From the NCBI RefSeq assembly GCF_031885415.1, contig NZ_CP116871.1, forward strand, positions 1,488,001-1,552,000: a stretch of 64,000 bases of DNA. The letters run 5' to 3'. This document shows positions 17,763 through 29,327 of the stretch, piece after piece. The notes under the pieces are model-generated. The model was not told the origin of the DNA. It saw only the letters and a list, made by a program, of their open reading frames with translations, and ran no database searches. Made by a program: the position numbers and the translations under genes. Origin of the DNA: Microbacterium forte. GTDB taxonomy: Bacteria; Actinomycetota; Actinomycetes; Actinomycetales; Microbacteriaceae. How positions within the stretch are numbered: position 1 is the first letter of the stretch; the number at the start of each line of letters is the position of its first letter.

Positions 17763-19478
17763 TCAGCGCGCCCGCGCCACCCGACGCTCATCCCACACCG
17801 GAGCGTCGGACTCGTACACCTCTCCGTCTGACCCGAACACGAGGAACCGGTCGAACGAGCGCGCGAACCAGCGATCGTGGGTGACCGCGAGCACGGTTCC
17901 CTCGAAGCGCTGCAGGGCGTCTTCAAGGGCCTCCGCCGACTCGATGTCGAGGTTGTCCGTCGGCTCGTCGAGCAGCAGCAGCGTCGCGCCGGAGAGCTCG
18001 AGCAGCAGCACCTGGAACCGCGCCTGCTGCCCGCCGGAGAGCGATTCGAAGGCCTGCTGCGCCTGGCGGACGAGTCCGTACCGGTCGAGCGCCGAGCTGG
18101 CTGCGTCCCTCGGCATCCCCGCTCGCCGCTCGTCGCCTCTGTGCAGGATCTCGAGCAGAGTGCGGCCGACGAATTCCGGATGCGCATGCGTCTGGGCGAA
18201 CAGCCCCGGCACGACGCGCGCGCCGAGCGTGGCCCGCCCGCTGTGATCGACGGGAGCCAGCTGCTCCCCCGTGGATGTCACGTGGCCCAGCGACGGATCC
18301 GGGTCGCTGCCTCCGCTCGCGAGCAGGCGGAGGAAGTGCGACTTGCCCGAGCCGTTCGACCCGAGCACCGCCACCCGATCGCCGTACCAGACCTCGGCAT
18401 CGAACGGCCGCATCAGGCCGCTGAGCTCGAGCCGCTGCGCGACCACCGCGCGTTTGCCGGTGCGTGCTCCGCGCAGTCGCATGTCGAAGTCCTGAGCCGG
18501 CGGCCGCTCCTCCGGCGGGCCCGCCTCCTCGAACTTGCGCAGACGGGTCTGCGCCGCCTGATACCGCGACGCGAACCCGTCGTTCGCCGATGCCTTGACC
18601 TTGAGGTTCGCGACGAGGGTGCGCAGCTTCTCATGCTGCTCGTCCCACCGACGGCGGAGCTCGTCGAGCCTGTCCATGCGGTCGCTGCGCGCCTGGTGGT
18701 AGGTTGCGAACCCGCCACCGTGCACCCATGCCGAAGCACCGGCACCGCCGGGTTCGAGAGTGATCAGGCGGTCGACCGCCCGCGCCAGCAGCTCCCGATC
18801 GTGCGAGACGAGCAGCACGGTCTTCGGCGTCTGTCTCAGCTGCTCCTCGAGCCAGCGCTTCGTGGGCACGTCGAGGTAGTTGTCGGGCTCGTCGAGCAGC
18901 AGCACCTCGTCCGGTCCGCGCAGCAGCGCCTCCAGAGCGAGCCGCTTCTGCTCGCCGCCCGACAGCGTCGTGAGGTCGCGGAACCGCGCACGCTCGTAGG
19001 GCACGCCGAGAGCGGCGACCGTGCACTGATCCCACACGGTCTCGTGCTCGTACCCGCCGGCGTCCGCGTACTCCGCGATCGCCGTCGCGTAGGCCATCTG
19101 GGTGTCGTGCTCATCCCGTTCGATCAGCGCGTCCTCCGCCGCCTCGAGAGCCACCGCCGCCTGACGGATGCGCCGAGGCGCCACTCTCACGAGCAGTTCG
19201 TGAACGGTCTGGCCGGCCTCGCCGTGGCCGACGAACTGATCCATCACACCGAGCCCGCCGTCGATCGTCACGACCCCGGCGTCTGCGGCCTGATCGCCTC
19301 GGATGATGCGGAGCAGCGTCGTCTTGCCTGCCCCGTTGGGTCCGATGAGCGCGCTCGTCGAACCGGCTCCGACGCGGAACGTCGTCTCGTCCAACAGCGG
19401 TCTGCCGTCAGGAAGGGTCAGCGAGACCCCTGCAACATCTATGTATCCCACCGTGCGTGGCCGTCCTTCCGCCCGCAT
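17763..19478 (-). CDS. ABC-F family ATPase (ribosome-associated or resistance type)
   Basis: A 571-residue soluble protein with two ABC cassettes and no membrane segments. Cassette 1 has Walker A GPNGAGKT, signature LSGGEQ and Walker B LLLDEPDNYLD. Cassette 2 has GSNGSGKS, LSGGQQ and LLLDEPTDNLD. The charged inter-domain linker contains long helices (about residues 255-335). ABC-F proteins act on the ribosome as translation factors or antibiotic protection factors. The drug-facing linker is not diagnostic here. Start uncertain: ATG 19478 sits close behind a TAGCCT -10, while GTG 19451 (GYIDVAGV) has GGAAGG 12 bases upstream and fits family N-termini better. Confidence 0.88.
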   Translation of the reverse strand: MRAEGRPRTVGYIDVAGVSLTLPDGRPLLDETTFRVGAGSTSALIGPNGAGKTTLLRIIRGDQAADAGVVTIDGGLGVMDQFVGHGEAGQTVHELLVRVAPRRIRQAAVALEAAEDALIERDEHDTQMAYATAIAEYADAGGYEHETVWDQCTVAALGVPYERARFRDLTTLSGGEQKRLALEALLRGPDEVLLLDEPDNYLDVPTKRWLEEQLRQTPKTVLLVSHDRELLARAVDRLITLEPGGAGASAWVHGGGFATYHQARSDRMDRLDELRRRWDEQHEKLRTLVANLKVKASANDGFASRYQAAQTRLRKFEEAGPPEERPPAQDFDMRLRGARTGKRAVVAQRLELSGLMRPFDAEVWYGDRVAVLGSNGSGKSHFLRLLASGGSDPDPSLGHVTSTGEQLAPVDHSGRATLGARVVPGLFAQTHAHPEFVGRTLLEILHRGDERRAGMPRDAASSALDRYGLVRQAQQAFESLSGGQQARFQVLLLELSGATLLLLDEPTDNLDIESAEALEDALQRFEGTVLAVTHDRWFARSFDRFLVFGSDGEVYESDAPVWDERRVARAR

Positions 19479-19490
19479 GGCGAGCCGACC

Positions 19491-19496
19491 AGGCTA
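19491..19496 (-). promoter_or_regulatory. -10 box for the ABC-F gene
   Basis: TAGCCT on the minus strand, 12 bases before ATG 19478 and 39 before GTG 19451. With the latter start it would give a leader of roughly 33 bases. Confidence 0.4.
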
Positions 19497-19520
19497 TCAG
19501 CTGCCGGAGCCGACGGCGGG

Positions 19521-21305
19521 TCAGGAGCGACGGCCGACCACCTGGATTGCCTCGGTGCGGGGCGCCACCGGGAGAAGCATCCGGAACTCGGTGCCGACGC
19601 CCTCCCTGCTCGTCACATCCATCGAGCCGCCGTGGGCGAGCACGATCGCCCGAGTGATCGTGAGCCCCAGCCCGACGCCGGGCACCGCGTTCCGGGTCGC
19701 GGTCGACGCGCGGAAGAACCGGGTGAACAGCATGCCCTGCTCGTCTTCGGGGATCCCCACGCCGGTGTCGCGCACCGCGAGCTCGACGGCTCCGTCGACC
19801 TCGCGCAGGCTCGCGGTCACCCGCCCTCCCGCAGCGGTGAACTTGATCGCGTTCGACAGCAGATTGTCGAGGGCCTGCCCGATACGTCCCGAATCCACGG
19901 TCATCAGCACCGGACTCGTCGGGACCTCGGCGAGGATCTCGATGCCCTGCCGCTGCGCGTGCGGCCCCGAAGACGCGACGGCGCTGCGCACCAGCTCGGC
20001 GACGTCGGCTTCTCGGCGTTCGAGCGGGAAGCGACCGGACTCGACCTGGGCGGTGAAGAGCAGGTCGCCGACGAGATTCAGCAGCCGCTGCGCGTTGCGC
20101 TCGATGATGTCGACGAACTCCTGCTGATCCGACGTGAGCGGCTGGGCCGGATCGTTCTGCAGGAGGTCGAGGAATCCGATGATCGCGCTCAGCGGTGTGC
20201 GCAGCTCGTGCGAGATCATCCCGACGAACTCGTCCTTCATGCGTGCGACCTCGACCGCCCGGGTCTCGTCCGTGATCACCAGCAGGTAGCCATGTCGCGA
20301 ACCGTCGGAGTCCTGATAGGGGGTGACGGTGACACGGGCGGGGACCGTCGACCCGCCCTCCCTCGCCACGTCGATGTGCGAATCCACCGGCAGCCCGGCG
20401 TCAGCATCGTCGAAGAGTGCGCGCAGCCCGGGGTGGAGCTCATCGCCCGGCGTCGGCCCATGCTCGGGGACGAACGGGGCGAGCGCGTGCGAGGGGAAGA
20501 ACCGGTCGATCTGCACCGCGGCGAGCGCGTCGGGCACCTCCATGCCGAGCAGCCGCACAGCGCCCGGATTCCAGGCCGTGATGGTTCCGTGGTTGTCGGT
20601 GGCGATGACGGCCTGTCCGGTGATCGAGTTCCACAGGCTCGTGAAGGACTCGGAGAGCGCGCGGTACTGCTGCTCGCTCGACTTCAGCTGCTCGAGGATC
20701 TCCTCGTTGGCCGCCAGGGCCGCCGTGCGCTCGACGACGTGGGCCTCGGCCTGGGTGGTGCGAAGACGCTGCTGGCGCGACAGCTCGTTGACGATGGCCC
20801 CCACCGTCGCGAAGACCAGCGGACCGATCACACCGCGCAGCCAATCGGCCGGGGCCTCCGGCGGGTCGATGAGGTTCGGCATGACCAGGGCGATCGACGA
20901 GAGGACCCCCACGATGAGGACCTGCCTGCGACCGGGAGCGGCGGCGATCCAGACCACGGGGAGGAGGACGAAGGAGGAGAAGAGCGATGCCGGCCCTCCG
21001 GTGCCGGTCCGGATGGCTCCCAGTGCGACGATGTCGATCATCGGGATGAGCATCACGATCCAGCCCTCGTACACACCTCGCACCGAGAGCACGGCCGCAA
21101 GCGCTGTGACGGCGGCGATGGTGACGAGCCCGAAGATCGCGACTGCTGTGTCCGTCACCGGGATCCCCGGGACGGTCCACATGAGCACGGCCGCGATGGC
21201 GACCGCGATCGCCGTCGGCCCCTGCTTCATCAGCGGCGTCGGGTTGTCGAAGTAGCGGCGCCAGCTGCGCTCCATCGACTGCTGCACGGTGCTGGTCGGA
21301 GTCAT
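19521..21305 (-). CDS. membrane PAS sensor histidine kinase
   Basis: A 594-residue kinase with about six hydrophobic segments in residues 30-175 (MASE-like membrane sensor), a short coiled linker, a PAS domain (about 213-350), and a HisKA dimer with phospho-acceptor His366 in MISHELRTPLS. The HATPase domain shows DNLLSNAIKF, DTGVGIP and GVGLGL. It would sense a membrane or cytoplasmic cue and phosphorylate a receiver, most simply the adjacent response regulator or the receiver of the PIG-L fusion. It is the last gene of the seven-gene cluster and overlaps the regulator gene by four bases (ATGA). Confidence 0.93.
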   Translation of the reverse strand: MTPTSTVQQSMERSWRRYFDNPTPLMKQGPTAIAVAIAAVLMWTVPGIPVTDTAVAIFGLVTIAAVTALAAVLSVRGVYEGWIVMLIPMIDIVALGAIRTGTGGPASLFSSFVLLPVVWIAAAPGRRQVLIVGVLSSIALVMPNLIDPPEAPADWLRGVIGPLVFATVGAIVNELSRQQRLRTTQAEAHVVERTAALAANEEILEQLKSSEQQYRALSESFTSLWNSITGQAVIATDNHGTITAWNPGAVRLLGMEVPDALAAVQIDRFFPSHALAPFVPEHGPTPGDELHPGLRALFDDADAGLPVDSHIDVAREGGSTVPARVTVTPYQDSDGSRHGYLLVITDETRAVEVARMKDEFVGMISHELRTPLSAIIGFLDLLQNDPAQPLTSDQQEFVDIIERNAQRLLNLVGDLLFTAQVESGRFPLERREADVAELVRSAVASSGPHAQRQGIEILAEVPTSPVLMTVDSGRIGQALDNLLSNAIKFTAAGGRVTASLREVDGAVELAVRDTGVGIPEDEQGMLFTRFFRASTATRNAVPGVGLGLTITRAIVLAHGGSMDVTSREGVGTEFRMLLPVAPRTEAIQVVGRRS

Positions 21306-21649
21306 CGTGTCGCTTCTCGCAGGAGCGCTCGCAGATCCGCACCGATGATCGGCTTGGGAAGCGCGGCATCGGCGTCGGGGTAGTCCGCGACGTCGAGCAC
21401 CGAGCTCACGATGAGGAAGCAGTCGGGGAAGCGGGTCTTGATGAGACGCGCCAGCTCCGTCCCGCTGATGCCGGGGAGCAGCAGGTCGAGCACCGTGACG
21501 GCCGGAGAGATCGTCGCGAACGCAGCGATCGCCGTCTCGGCATCCGCCGCTGCGAACACGTCGAACCCCTCGCGGTCGAGGTAGCGCTTCAGCAGCGCCG
21601 TCTGGTCTGCGCTGTCCTCGACCACGAGGGCCAGCGGCCGCGCGGTCAT
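21302..21649 (-). CDS. single-domain response regulator (receiver only)
   Basis: A 115-residue CheY-like receiver with no output domain. The acidic pocket is VVEDSAD near residue 9-15, phosphorylation site Asp in VLDLLLPG (about residue 55), conserved Ser in VSS and Lys in LPKP. Stand-alone receivers usually relay phosphate or regulate by protein contact. Coupled on both sides by four-base overlaps, to the histidine kinase downstream and to the 47-residue membrane protein upstream. The ATG at 21649 is fixed by the overlap and by the start of the domain. Confidence 0.9.
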   Translation of the reverse strand: MTARPLALVVEDSADQTALLKRYLDREGFDVFAAADAETAIAAFATISPAVTVLDLLLPGISGTELARLIKTRFPDCFLIVSSVLDVADYPDADAALPKPIIGADLRALLREATR

Positions 21650-21789
21650 CGCAGGAACAGCTCTCGCACGATCACGATGACGACGACGATGCCCAGGGCG
21701 AGGAGCGCCTGCGGGATCAGGAGCTTCTCGCGACGGGCGTCGGCGGCGATCTCCTCCTCCTCGGCGCTTCTCGAAGGTGCTTCGGTCAT
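21646..21789 (-). CDS. 47-residue single-pass membrane protein
   Basis: An acidic N-terminal half (SAEEEEIAADARREK) is followed by one hydrophobic helix (LLIPQALLALGIVVVIVIV, about residues 23-43) and a basic end. The ATG at 21789 overlaps the GT2 stop and its own stop overlaps the regulator start, both as ATGA, so it is a real coupled gene and not noise. No family is recognised. A role as an accessory subunit of the membrane glycosyltransferase or of the histidine kinase is an inference from position only. Confidence 0.75.
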   Translation of the reverse strand: MTEAPSRSAEEEEIAADARREKLLIPQALLALGIVVVIVIVRELFLR

Positions 21790-23273
21790 GAGTCGACCCG
21801 TCCGATCTTCTCGGTCTTGATCCATGCGGCGTCGGCGTGGCGCCACTCTTTGATGTACGAATCCACGGTGATGGCGCACAGAAGCGACCCATACCCGCAG
21901 ACGTAGAGCAGGAGGCCGGCGAAGAAGCGGCCGCCCGGCAGTCGTTCCACCGCGCGTGCGAGCCAGATGCCGAGCATCGAGATCGGCCCCCAGAGATAGA
22001 AGATGACCGCCCAGGTGAACCGGGTCTCATCCGTGACGGCGATTCCGAGGTCGCTCAGCCCCGCCTCGAACAGCCAGGGGAACAGCGCGATCGCCATCAG
22101 GATGAGAGCCCCGAGTCCGGGGAACATCAGCGCCTCGCGCCAGGATTGACGGCCGATCCGCCCGTCGAGCTGCACCGCGTAGAGCATCGAGTACAGATAG
22201 ATGCAGGCTGCGGAGATCCACATGAACCGGAAGACGAACTCGGCGATGTCGCTGTGCAGGACGAGCAGCACGAGCAGCGCCGTGGCGGCGAGGATCATGA
22301 ACGCCGGCAGCAGCAGGATGGTGAACCACGCGAGACCGAACGCGAAGCTGCCCAGGTTGTGCACGCGGCTGGGTCGGAACCAGAGATGGCGGTAGATCGA
22401 GGTCAGCTGCACGTTGCCTCTCGCCCACCGCAGGCGCTGCTTCCAGAGGCTGTCGATGGTGCGGGGCTCCTCGGCGAGCACGACCGCGTGGGGCTCGAAG
22501 ACCATACGGCGCCCCGCCAGCTGACCCTCGAACGTCGTCATCGTGTCTTCGGCGAGCGTGCCGGTCGGGATCCGACCGCCGATGGCTTCGAGGTTCGCCC
22601 GCGAATGCAGCTGCGCGCCGCCGGCCAGGCACGCGATCGCTCCCCCGACGTTCTGGGTGCGCCGGGCCGAGAGCTGTCCGATGACATACTCGATCGCGAT
22701 GAACCGGGTGAGGTAGTTGCGGTCGCGGCTGCCCTCGGCGATGTAGGCCGTGACGGCCCCGACCTTCTCGTCGGCCAGGTGCCGGCTCATCTTCCGCAGC
22801 GAGTCCCGCGCAAAGATCACGTCGGCGTCCATGATCAGGACCGCTTCGGTCCACTCGTCCGCGAGCACGATGTCGAGCCCGTGATTCAGCGTGTGCGCCT
22901 TGCCCTCGCCGCCCTTGTCGCGACGCAGGTGCACGACGCGTCCGGGGTACGCCGCAGCCTTCGCCGCGACCACCTCCGGGGTGTCATCGGTCGACGCATC
23001 GTCGATGACGAAGATCCGCAGCCGGTCGGCCGGGTACTCCAGCTGCGTGAGGCGTTCGATCGCCTGCCCGAGCACGAGCCCCTCGTTCCAGGCGGGGATC
23101 AGCACGGCGATGCGGGGGTGGTGCGGAGCTGCCTTGCCGTAGTGGTTGCGGAAGGCATGGATCGGGAGCACGAGGAACTGCAGGCCCGTGTTGATGACAG
23201 GCAGCGTTCCGACCAGCACGCAGAGGAGCAGGAACACGACGACGACGGTCTCGACCCAGTTCAGCTCGGGCAT
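21786..23273 (-). CDS. processive-type family 2 membrane glycosyltransferase
   Basis: A 495-residue GT2 enzyme. An N-terminal helix (about 8-30) precedes the catalytic domain with Asp-Asp at 91-92 (VIDDAS), DAD at 149-151, the acceptor-side Glu-Asp at 242-243 (LAEDTM) and QRLRW at 279-283. Four or more C-terminal helices follow. This D,D,D,QxxRW set with trailing helices is the hyaluronan/cellulose/poly-GlcNAc synthase layout, so it probably polymerises and exports a sugar chain. The ATG at 23273 has GGAGGG seven bases upstream and shares its A with the stop of the PHP gene. Donor sugar unknown. Confidence 0.9.
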   Translation of the reverse strand: MPELNWVETVVVVFLLLCVLVGTLPVINTGLQFLVLPIHAFRNHYGKAAPHHPRIAVLIPAWNEGLVLGQAIERLTQLEYPADRLRIFVIDDASTDDTPEVVAAKAAAYPGRVVHLRRDKGGEGKAHTLNHGLDIVLADEWTEAVLIMDADVIFARDSLRKMSRHLADEKVGAVTAYIAEGSRDRNYLTRFIAIEYVIGQLSARRTQNVGGAIACLAGGAQLHSRANLEAIGGRIPTGTLAEDTMTTFEGQLAGRRMVFEPHAVVLAEEPRTIDSLWKQRLRWARGNVQLTSIYRHLWFRPSRVHNLGSFAFGLAWFTILLLPAFMILAATALLVLLVLHSDIAEFVFRFMWISAACIYLYSMLYAVQLDGRIGRQSWREALMFPGLGALILMAIALFPWLFEAGLSDLGIAVTDETRFTWAVIFYLWGPISMLGIWLARAVERLPGGRFFAGLLLYVCGYGSLLCAITVDSYIKEWRHADAAWIKTEKIGRVDS

Positions 23274-23986
23274 CAGCGAGCCCTCCATCCGTCGAGGATC
23301 TCCACCACGCGCGAATAGCGTCCGACATCGGAGGCCACATGGCTGTCGGTCGACGCGACGATCTCGGCGCCGGCGCCGTGCAGTGCGTCGAGAAGCGGGA
23401 TACCGGGGCACCCCCACTTCTCGTTCACCTCGACGATCGTGTCGGTCTCGGCCGCCGTCTTCGCCCAGGCCGCGATGCGATCGGCACCGAGGTCGTTCTC
23501 GGAGAGACCGATCTTGGGCAGGATCGAGAAGCAGTGCGCCAGCTGGTTCCCCGGGTGGCGGCGCATGGCCGAGATCAGCGCGGAGACCAGCTGATCGAGC
23601 GCGTCCTCCGGAGCCCAGCCGCCCTCGATCCGCTCTCGGACGACGCTCGGACCGAGCGGTCCGTCGACGCCGGGGAACTGATGATCGGCGATCAGGATGC
23701 GGTCGATCCCGGTGGGCAGCTCGGGGATGTCGAGGTCACCCGAGGCATCGAGGATCTTCGCCTCCACCCCGGTCAGCACGGTGAGACCGTCGGGCACCTG
23801 CAGCGACCGCACGGCCGCGAGATAGTCGGGCACCCAGGGTGTGGATCGGCGCACATGGTCGACCAGGCGCACGGTGGCGAGCCCCGCCGCGGATGCCGCC
23901 GCGACGTTCTCGGCGAGAGTCGAGACCGCGTCGTCCGAGAACGTCGAATGCACGTGGTGATCGCCTCGGAGCAGCGCGTGAGTCAC
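23273..23986 (-). CDS. PHP-domain metal-dependent hydrolase
   Basis: A 237-residue PHP protein. The metal site is seen in DHHVHSTFSDD (residues 9-19), VDH near 43, E in GVEAK, DH in IADHQF, H in LAHCF and the terminal DSH in STDSH. PHP enzymes are phosphoesterases, including histidinol phosphatase and the capsule tyrosine phosphatase CpsB. Coupled by a four-base overlap to the ATP-grasp gene and a one-base overlap to the glycosyltransferase. That context favours a phosphatase acting in glycan or conjugate synthesis over histidine synthesis. Substrate not determinable. Confidence 0.85.
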   Translation of the reverse strand: MTHALLRGDHHVHSTFSDDAVSTLAENVAAASAAGLATVRLVDHVRRSTPWVPDYLAAVRSLQVPDGLTVLTGVEAKILDASGDLDIPELPTGIDRILIADHQFPGVDGPLGPSVVRERIEGGWAPEDALDQLVSALISAMRRHPGNQLAHCFSILPKIGLSENDLGADRIAAWAKTAAETDTIVEVNEKWGCPGIPLLDALHGAGAEIVASTDSHVASDVGRYSRVVEILDGWRAR

Positions 23987-24972
23987 AGCTCCTCCTGGTG
24001 CCCCGCGTGCGCGGAGATGAGGACCTCGTCGACGTCGAGGATCACGTCCTCGAGGAACCGCACCGAGGCGACCTCGCGGAAGGGGATCGTCGACGGGATC
24101 TCACGACCCAGGAACAGATCGGCGACGAGCGAGGGGATGTCGACGCCGGCGGCGATCGTGAGCGGAAGAGCACCCGGGAACCGCGGATTGACCTCGAGCA
24201 GCACGGCACGGCCAGCGCGGTCCCGCCGGAGCTGCACGTTGGCGACGCCCACGAGTCCGATGGCACGCGCGATCGACGCCGCGGCGCTCTCGAGCTCTTC
24301 GTCGTGCACCGTGCGTCCGGCGATCGCGACACCCGAGTCGACCCTGGCGCGGGTGCGCGGCACAGCCGCCACCACCGCACCCGAGGCGTCTGCGATCACA
24401 TCCACGGAGTACTCCTCGCCGGGGAGGAAGTCCTGCACGATGAGTCCCTCATCCTCGGGAAGCGCGTCGAGCGCCGCGCGGTCGGGGACGACTCGCACGC
24501 CACGGCTGCCCGCACCCTGGCGAGGCTTGGCGAAGGCCGGGAACTCCCAGTCGACCGCGCGGGCGTCGGGACCCGCGAGCTCGGTGCGCGGGGTGAGCCC
24601 CGTCGCCTCGCAGCGCTCGGCGAGCAGCAGCTTGTCGAGCGCCACCGAGAGCGTGTCCTGCGAGGGCGCGGCGAGCACTGCCGGGGCGAGCTCGTCGCGT
24701 CGGCCGGCGAGTGCCGCGAGCTCGACATCCACCGTGGAGATCACGAGGTCGAGTCGATCCTCCTCGACCATGCGGGCGATCGTCGAGACGAAGTCCTCGT
24801 CGCGCCCCGGTGGCACGAGACGCCGGTGCGTCGGCGGGACGAGGTAGATGCCGCTGGCCCAGCCGTCCATGTCGGCCGCGAAGACCTCGAGGTCGGATCG
24901 GCGCAGGAGCGAGCGGATCACGGCCACGCCGGCAGGGCCTCCTGCACCGGTCACCAGCACGCGCGCGGTCAT
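23983..24972 (-). CDS. CarB-like ATP-grasp ligase
   Basis: A 329-residue protein with a pre-ATP-grasp Rossmann-like domain (VLVTGAGGPAGVAVIRSL, residues 5-22) and an ATP-grasp fold: FAKPRQGAGSRGV (ATP-binding loop, about 158-170), IVQDFLPGEEYSVDV, and the metal-binding LLEVNPRFPG. It resembles carbamoyl-phosphate-synthase-like ligases that occur in many surface polysaccharide loci and join a carboxylate to an amine or thiol. The start is ATG 24972, one-base overlap with the PIG-L fusion stop, with GGGAG upstream. Substrates unknown. Confidence 0.88.
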   Translation of the reverse strand: MTARVLVTGAGGPAGVAVIRSLLRRSDLEVFAADMDGWASGIYLVPPTHRRLVPPGRDEDFVSTIARMVEEDRLDLVISTVDVELAALAGRRDELAPAVLAAPSQDTLSVALDKLLLAERCEATGLTPRTELAGPDARAVDWEFPAFAKPRQGAGSRGVRVVPDRAALDALPEDEGLIVQDFLPGEEYSVDVIADASGAVVAAVPRTRARVDSGVAIAGRTVHDEELESAAASIARAIGLVGVANVQLRRDRAGRAVLLEVNPRFPGALPLTIAAGVDIPSLVADLFLGREIPSTIPFREVASVRFLEDVILDVDEVLISAHAGHQEEL

Positions 24973-26030
24973 CAGCTCTCCCTTCGAGTGAGCTCGTGGG
25001 CGCCGATGAACTCGGCGGTCTCGCGCACGACCTCGAGCGGCTCCACGGCCGCTCCGCCGCCGAAGCGCGACCAGTATCGAGCGGTGGCCGTCACGAAGTC
25101 GGGGTCCAGGTAGTCGCGCGTCGCCGTCTGCGAGCCGAAGCACTCGAGCAGGCGCAGCTTCTGAGCGATGTACTGATCGATCCGCACGAAGCGCGTCGGA
25201 CGGAAGTCGATGGTGGCCGAGGGGCTCTGGTAGCAGGCGACGGTGCCGACCCTGCGGGTCGCGGCGATCGTCGCCTCGCTCACGGCGCGGTGATCCTGGT
25301 GACGGTCGTTGGACGAGTGGGTGTAGACGATCGTCGGCTGCACCTCCTGAACGACCTCCTCGATCAACCGCACGGTGGCACCGCCGCCGGAGATCTCGGT
25401 GTCCACGAGGTCTTTGACGAACAGGCGCGCGTTGAGGATCTCGGCCGAGGCGAGCGACTCGTGCTGCCGACTGTCGGCGTCTCCACCGCGCGCACCGCGC
25501 GAGAGGGTGAGGATGGTGATCGAGTCGCCGGCCTGGGCGTGCGCCGCGAGGATCCCGCCCACGCCGATCTCGACATCGTCGGGGTGCGCGCCGATGGCGA
25601 GCACGACCTCTTTGGTGCGGCCGGCTTCACGTCGCGCGCGACCCTCGGTCGCCAGCCGCTGCACGGCCTCGACGAGCTTCAGATTGTCGAGCGGCTTCGT
25701 GAGGAACTCGTCGGCCTGCGCGCGCAGGGCCGACACCGCGTACTCGACCGAGACGTGCGCGGTCATCACGATCACAGGCAGCAGGGGATCATTGCGACGC
25801 AGCTCTGCCAACAGCTCGAGGCCGTCGAGACCGGGCATCTCGATGTCGGTGACGACGACGTCAGGGGTGAAGGTCTCGAGTCGCTCGACGGCAGACTGTC
25901 CGTCGTGCGCGACCGCGACCTCACAGCCGGCCCGCCTCTCGAGCACGGTCTTCACGAGCAGGGCGACGTCAGGGTCGTCATCGACGACGAGGACGCGGGG
26001 AGCATCCTGGGGCATATCTGCGGCTCTCAT
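24972..26030 (-). CDS. response-regulator receiver fused to PIG-L (LmbE) deacetylase
   Basis: A 352-residue two-domain protein. Residues about 12-125 are a receiver: acidic DDD at 17-19, phospho-acceptor Asp62 in TDIEMPG, Thr/Ala in MTAH, Lys112 in TKP. Residues about 140-350 are a PIG-L deacetylase: AHPDD at 148-152 and HQDH at 244-247, the zinc and catalytic residues of GlcNAc-type deacetylases. Phosphorylation may gate deacetylation. It heads the seven-gene cluster. The start at 26030 has AGGGGA eight bases upstream. In-frame ATG 26063 (GGGAG at four bases) is an alternative adding 11 residues. I know of no characterised protein with this architecture. Confidence 0.88.
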   Translation of the reverse strand: MRAADMPQDAPRVLVVDDDPDVALLVKTVLERRAGCEVAVAHDGQSAVERLETFTPDVVVTDIEMPGLDGLELLAELRRNDPLLPVIVMTAHVSVEYAVSALRAQADEFLTKPLDNLKLVEAVQRLATEGRARREAGRTKEVVLAIGAHPDDVEIGVGGILAAHAQAGDSITILTLSRGARGGDADSRQHESLASAEILNARLFVKDLVDTEISGGGATVRLIEEVVQEVQPTIVYTHSSNDRHQDHRAVSEATIAATRRVGTVACYQSPSATIDFRPTRFVRIDQYIAQKLRLLECFGSQTATRDYLDPDFVTATARYWSRFGGGAAVEPLEVVRETAEFIGAHELTRRES

Positions 26031-26119
26031 TGGGGAAGTCCCCTGCCGATCAGCGTCCGGCATGTCACTCCCTGCGCCCTTCGCGCCGAGAGCTCGAGGG
26101 GAAGTCGAGCGGGTGTCTC

Positions 26120-26147
26120 TAAATACTGGCATATCAATAGACCGCAA
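26120..26147 (-). promoter_or_regulatory. candidate promoter of the seven-gene cluster
   Basis: Minus-strand -35 TTGCGG (26142-26147), 16-base spacer, -10 TATTTA (26120-26125) in a conspicuously AT-rich patch upstream of the receiver/PIG-L gene. The match is moderate. Confidence 0.4.
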
Positions 26148-26161
26148 CGACCGCGCAGCAC

Positions 26162-26199
26162 GACAGAGGGCCGGATGCTGTCGCATCCGGCCCTCTGTC
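26162..26199 (-). terminator. guaB terminator
   Basis: A perfect 17-bp stem with a TGTC loop ends ten bases before the guaB stop, on the downstream side. It separates guaB from the cluster at 19.5-26 kb. Confidence 0.9.
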
Positions 26200-26208
26200 T
26201 CTTCTGTC

Positions 26209-29327
<3,119 letters not shown>

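Follow-up and report, generated by a model that had tools for sequence, protein, structure and literature searches.

A co-inherited seven-gene cluster of Microbacterium forte joins a receiver–PIG-L fusion and a membrane glycosyltransferase to two-component genes

We investigated a gene cluster on the single 3.75-Mb chromosome of Microbacterium forte, within a stretch of 64,000 nucleotides (assembly GCF_031885415.1, contig NZ_CP116871.1, positions 1,488,001 to 1,552,000; called the window below). As a preliminary description of this DNA had reported, seven minus-strand open reading frames (ORFs) are read at 19521-26030, and each start overlaps the preceding stop by one or four bases (1, 4, 1, 4, 4 and 4). 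They encode, in this order, a receiver–PIG-L fusion, an ATP-grasp protein, a PHP protein, a family 2 glycosyltransferase (GT2), a 47-residue membrane protein, a lone receiver and a membrane PAS kinase. The features are as follows, in window coordinates.

24972..26030, minus strand: receiver–PIG-L fusion, a CheY-like receiver joined to an LmbE/PIG-L type metal-dependent N-deacetylase domain (Pfam PF00072 at residues 13-124, PF02585 at 144-257)
25659..25994, minus strand: receiver domain of the fusion, residues 13-124 (Pfam)
25260..25601, minus strand: PIG-L catalytic domain of the fusion, residues 144-257 (Pfam and solved relatives)
23983..24972, minus strand: ATP-grasp ligase, carbamoyl-phosphate-synthase-like (Pfam, NCBIfam, nearest solved chains)
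23273..23986, minus strand: PHP-superfamily metallohydrolase (Pfam; nearest solved chain YcdX)
21786..23273, minus strand: membrane GT2 glycosyltransferase (D,D,D,QxxRW motif; transmembrane helices at the C-terminus)
21646..21789, minus strand: single-pass membrane protein of 47 residues, whose gene is a conserved partner of GT2
21302..21649, minus strand: lone receiver protein (Pfam)
19521..21305, minus strand: membrane PAS sensor histidine kinase (Pfam)
26162..26199, minus strand: inverted repeat following guaB, probably a terminator that parts guaB from the cluster (by eye)

The fusion (Pfam E-values of 1.7e-33 for Response_reg and 9.9e-24 for PIG-L) probably starts at Met6 (base 26015) rather than at 26030, since an identical database protein has 347 and not 352 residues; its closest named database relatives are from Microbacterium. 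The receiver carries the residues that define a response regulator (acidic pair D18/D19, phospho-acceptor D62, T90 and K112). The catalytic domain scored 84.7 bits with PF02585 (cut-off 28.2) and contains H149, D151, D152, H244, D246 and H247, of which H149-D151-D152 and H247 form the HXD1D2 plus H motif of the LmbE/PIG-L superfamily. One study gives HXDD plus H as the catalytic motif of this superfamily and describes metal ligands, a general base and a His/Asp pair in MshB, with alanine mutants of the pair keeping 1% activity or less (PMC4101496); read by motif, the six fusion residues would correspond to these MshB residues. Solved relatives of the domain are TT1542, BshB and glycopeptide deacetylases, and the score with the bacillithiol deacetylase model BshB1 (TIGR04001) stayed below the cut-off (84.6 versus 182.5 bits). 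In three PIG-L proteins adjoining GT2 (L115-L117), N-terminal hydrophobic stretches (by eye) replace the receiver.

The GT2 protein (Pfam Glyco_tranf_2_3, 2e-30) contains the D,D,D,QxxRW residues already named in the preliminary description, and these were invariant in 97/97 aligned sequences (redundant copies included). Together with the transmembrane bundle of synthase fold in the structural model, they suggest a processive membrane GT2: the model matched hyaluronan/cellulose synthase folds over 346-385 residues, with PcManGT as the best fold match. The best NCBIfam model was the poly-N-acetylglucosamine (poly-GlcNAc) synthase PgaC/IcaA (TIGR03937, 123.2 bits, cut-off 422.3, hence not reached); cellulose synthase BcsA (TIGR03030) gave 63.4 bits with a cut-off of 699.1, the glycolipid-type models HpnI and HpnB matched under cut-off, and a Pfam scan of the window proteins found no PilZ domain. 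The ATP-grasp protein matched ATPgrasp_Ter (3.4e-31) and ATP-grasp_3 (8.8e-17) in Pfam, its nearest solved chain is 2pn1 followed by PylC, and K149, E260 and N262 were kept in 117/117 aligned sequences (redundant copies included). In the PHP protein (Pfam PHP, 1.1e-08), eight of nine ligand-like positions were invariant in 99/99 aligned sequences, the ninth being D in 94 and E in 5. In three genomes (G083, G160, G268), all from one genus, a single in-frame TGA lies inside the ATP-grasp match.

On the signalling side, the kinase comprises N-terminal hydrophobic segments (residues 29-148), a feature absent from the preliminary description, and PAS, HisKA and HATPase_c domains (Pfam), and its phospho-acceptor His was present in 114/115 aligned sequences, with one gap. 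The lone receiver (Response_reg, 3.3e-13) has the response-regulator residues E, D, D, S and K; the phospho-acceptor Asp and the Lys were found in 56/56 of the copies aligned, which had been selected for more than 35% identity.

The seven-gene set is a real, co-inherited system. Searched at a single setting each (E-value thresholds of 1e-50 for the fusion, 1e-60 for GT2, 1e-25 for PHP and 1e-40 for ATP-grasp), 299 Microbacteriaceae genomes yielded the fusion in 49 and the GT2, PHP and ATP-grasp genes, called the cassette below, in an identical set of 31, all within the 49; kinship of the genomes inflates this count (15/85 genera). Of the 31 cassette loci, 30 have the kinase within the cluster (it is absent from G176, and a contig end truncates G274), so that the enzymes and the two-component genes, whose rare co-occurrence would have spoken against the preliminary description, do travel together. 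This gene order is also found elsewhere in Microbacteriaceae and outside the family, and the arrangement is therefore more than chance. In the same genus, the full-length fusion was found in 8/59 genomes (the window's own included), all 59 matching by the receiver alone; at E <= 1e-35 and with partial matches included, the fusion appeared in 17/248 genomes of the order and 4/396 of the phylum. A scan of named genomes (at least 80 loci) added Leucobacter, Leifsonia, Cellulomonas, Blastococcus and Nakamurella, and among the matches listed were further records named Lysobacterales, Marinicella, Burkholderiales, Rhodospirillales, Myxococcota, Comamonas and others. In other Actinomycetota and in Proteobacteria the cassette is found again in rearranged form.

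The cluster is flanked by guaB and an ABC-F gene (window 19478-26209). A same-genus genome (G021, locus L217) has what looks like the empty site: guaB lies ~0.67 kb before an ABC-F gene (93% identical) without the cluster, compared with the 6.7-kb cluster in this interval of the window. The search covered 15 of the 51 same-genus genomes without a full-length fusion, and the remaining seven ABC-F loci found had no guaB within their 1.5-kb flanks.

Natural variants of the locus were counted in a non-redundant set of 143 loci (window included), obtained from 153 by merging 10 near-identical copies after dropping L168, whose frame is broken, and L172, which a contig end truncates. The count of kinase, ATP-grasp, PHP and GT2 genes was confined to the fetched flanks and so misses unlinked ones. 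All four were present in 65 loci, the enzyme trio with no kinase close by in 12, ATP-grasp and GT2 only in 12, the kinase only in 19, none in 11 and other mixtures in 24. The PIG-L catalytic residues were complete wherever at least one of the three enzymes was present (113/113 loci) and damaged in 12/30 loci that had none of them; the receiver was damaged or absent (a class that takes in PIG-L proteins without any receiver) in 24/44 loci without a nearby kinase versus 2/99 with one. The crossed comparisons were weak, both for catalytic damage (2/44 without, 10/99 with kinase) and for receiver damage (7/30 without, 19/113 with enzymes). Taken as counts and not as a proven correlation, these variants point to two modules, in which the PIG-L chemistry goes with the cassette enzymes and the receiver with the kinase. 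Among the 18 cassette-less Microbacteriaceae fusions, the PIG-L site was damaged in 11 and intact in 7, and a nearby kinase was kept in 16. Three of the damaged fusions (G066, G298, G331) have a stop inside the match, for which gene decay is an alternative. One cassette-less fusion locus (L093) is followed by a row of four histidine-kinase matches and extra receivers. Such variants offer ready controls: a cassette without receiver, a receiver without cassette and an unlinked GT2.

The 47-residue protein had no Pfam or NCBIfam match, and its conservation became apparent from its position. In 78/87 loci (window not counted) a hydrophobic ORF of 33-95 residues starts at the GT2 stop or close to it, and in 74 of the 87 one starts exactly 4 bases before the GT2 end. 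Control searches for the same small hydrophobic ORF gave 0/127 after the fusion, 1/96 after ATP-grasp, 6/86 after PHP and 1/91 after the kinase, the six PHP matches being due to six non-redundant loci in which no GT2 is local and the micro-protein gene comes after PHP. In eight PHP loci without local GT2 that were examined, the micro-protein gene directly followed PHP in seven, one of which (Leifsonia sp. CL147) duplicates an unlinked-GT2 case described next, and was missing in L162. Five of the 31 cassette genomes, all from one genus (L128-L132), have GT2 at another locus with the micro-protein gene staying in the cluster, and a micro-protein gene follows none of these five unlinked copies of GT2. 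An alignment of 25 copies chosen for spread often showed a D-x-x-x-E-like stretch before the helix and often an arginine after it. The micro-protein is a candidate subunit for a group of GT2 enzymes in Actinomycetota and Proteobacteria. As for GT2 copy number, L133 (G083) has a second, unlinked GT2, 57% identical to the window GT2, besides the clustered one, and one actinobacterial locus (L171) has a tandem pair. A luciferase-like/flavin mononucleotide-reductase-like gene pair by 4/5 unlinked GT2 genes and by the fusion in L107/L108 (functions by eye) was judged coincidental.

Of the 80 named loci listed, the titles point to 21 as Gram-negative (with one 'uncultured bacterium' among them), and neighbour genes, which at several locus sets came from a crude home-made ORF caller, were analysed in 18 of these (L210, L211 and L213 left out). 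A family of tetratricopeptide repeat (TPR) proteins, grouped by single linkage, was present in 12/18 Gram-negative versus 0/11 actinobacterial loci. Those scanned matched TPR models, with the PgaA and BcsC models far under cut-off; the layout is exporter-like, and 7/12 have a C-terminal F or W, which is frequent in outer-membrane barrels. Their identification as YaiO was dropped (hhalign probability 1.8%). A further family occurred in 4/18 loci, and both members scanned matched BcsB (PF03170); a PHP match was found in only 3/21. In a distant actinobacterial variant (L101), a UDP-GlcNAc 2-epimerase gene adjoins the ATP-grasp gene. Secreted-looking proteins of family AA110 lie near fusion or cassette genes in L197, L200 and L202-L205; two members scanned had no Pfam match, and the weak model (predicted local distance difference test score 61.9) resembles (alpha/alpha)6-type glycosidases at low template modelling scores, which is no more than suggestive. 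A lipoprotein-like family adjoins the distant GT2/ATP-grasp pair in L109, L115, L116 and L180-L182, and two members scanned of the lipoprotein after GT2 in L109, L115 and L116 had no Pfam match.

The best reading of these data, in which we have moderate confidence, is that the cluster makes an amino-sugar glycan for export and that phosphorylation of the deacetylase sets how far this glycan is deacetylated; this confidence covers the reading jointly with its component, in which a phosphorelay is coupled to a membrane unit for glycan synthesis. The glycan part gains support from the GT2 model, the TPR and BcsB-like neighbours in Gram-negatives and the epimerase in L101. The data thus support the preliminary description, which had proposed an extracellular glycan or glycoconjugate under post-translational control. 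In the proposed mechanism, GT2, probably together with the 47-residue protein, would make an N-acetylhexosamine (HexNAc)-type glycan at the inner membrane face and pass it outward, and the PIG-L domain would take N-acetyl groups off the glycan or a precursor. The ATP-grasp enzyme might then couple a carboxylate, e.g. an amino acid, to the freed amine, a step placed by analogy with thiol biosynthesis, and the PHP enzyme might strip phosphate from an intermediate. In thiol biosynthesis, GlcNAc transfer is followed by deacetylation and ligation. The membrane PAS kinase would sense a cue and phosphorylate both the PIG-L receiver and the lone receiver, and the signal would thereby set, upward or downward, the degree of deacetylation at the enzyme level, without a DNA-binding output.

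Several points weigh against this proposal. The halves are separable, 18/49 fusion genomes being without the enzymes, and 44/143 loci of the wider set have no kinase in the fetched flanks. Tree-based independent-pairs tests of the damage patterns were not significant and underpowered (6 and 9 changes on the tree), and the ATP-grasp and PHP steps are the weakest links of the mechanism. We put forward only tentatively a more specific version, in which the kinase tunes surface-polymer charge via an intracellular receiver-fused deacetylase (a new class of phosphorelay output), ATP-grasp caps amines, GT2 needs the micro-protein and the fusion has become a pseudo-enzyme signalling protein where the polymer genes were lost.

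Among the alternatives, a short glycolipid instead of a polymer fares best, even if we consider it unlikely: GT2 would add HexNAc to a membrane lipid, PIG-L deacetylate it and ATP-grasp acylate the amine. Eukaryotic PIG-L deacetylates GlcNAc-phosphatidylinositol, and PcManGT as the best fold match, the matches to HpnI and HpnB and the distant PIG-L homologues with hydrophobic N-termini beside GT2 would all fit. The D,D,D,QxxRW residues with several C-terminal helices, the length of the hyaluronan/cellulose synthase matches and the TPR and BcsB-like proteins accompanying the cassette in Gram-negatives argue for a polymer instead. It is improbable that the fusion serves mainly in signalling, its PIG-L fold being a phospho-controlled binding module with deacetylation secondary or lost. 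Such a role would suit the enzyme-less fusion genomes, where receiver residues are intact in 10 of the 11 with a damaged active site, but no fusion with cassette genes (0/113) is damaged, so that the chemistry in the window appears constrained. A soluble small-molecule pathway standing beside a two-component system by chance is very improbable: mycothiol and bacillithiol synthesis use the same reaction types (glycosylation, deacetylation, ligation) and the solved relatives of the PIG-L domain include BshB, but GT2 is of the membrane synthase type, the BshB1 cut-off was missed and the kinase is in the cluster in nearly all family loci.

The exported amino-sugar glycan reading can be set against known systems. 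The preliminary description knew of no described system with this gene set, and likewise neither the set nor a receiver–PIG-L protein was found described in the open-licence PMC literature. With MshB/BshB the fusion shares the HXDD plus H motif and, going by the MshB study, the His/Asp pair; it differs in the fused receiver and in the missed BshB1 cut-off. The E. coli K-12 yaiS-yaiP-yaiX-yaiO locus (L214) likewise combines a PIG-L deacetylase (YaiS, sharing 33% identity with the window PIG-L over 163 residues), a GT2, a putative acyltransferase (IS2-broken) and an adjoining outer-membrane barrel, but has no annotated ATP-grasp, PHP, receiver or kinase, and its GT2 is 31% identical over 127 residues only. 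YaiO is unrelated to the TPR proteins of the Gram-negative relatives (hhalign), and a YaiO-type barrel is not expected in a Gram-positive; the yai locus may be a distant functional analogue. Also among the closest known systems is the Pga/Ica poly-beta-1,6-GlcNAc system, which provides the best NCBIfam model for the membrane GT2 synthase. Pga includes a deacetylase and a small partner protein in the membrane, to which Gram-negatives add a TPR exporter, all with counterparts here or in the relatives. Unlike in Pga/Ica, the window deacetylase is a PIG-L type domain that follows a receiver and is for that reason probably cytoplasmic, the GT2 falls far short of the model cut-off, and the cluster adds ATP-grasp, PHP and a phosphorelay. 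CheB is a response regulator with an enzymatic output, and the fusion resembles such regulators in joining a receiver to a catalytic domain without DNA binding; its output, by contrast, is an LmbE/PIG-L deacetylase. We call the system a variant of synthase-type glycan systems. Synthase-type exopolysaccharides described so far are mostly controlled by cyclic di-GMP or transcription; a receiver on the deacetylase itself would, if true, open a direct path from a sensor kinase to surface charge.
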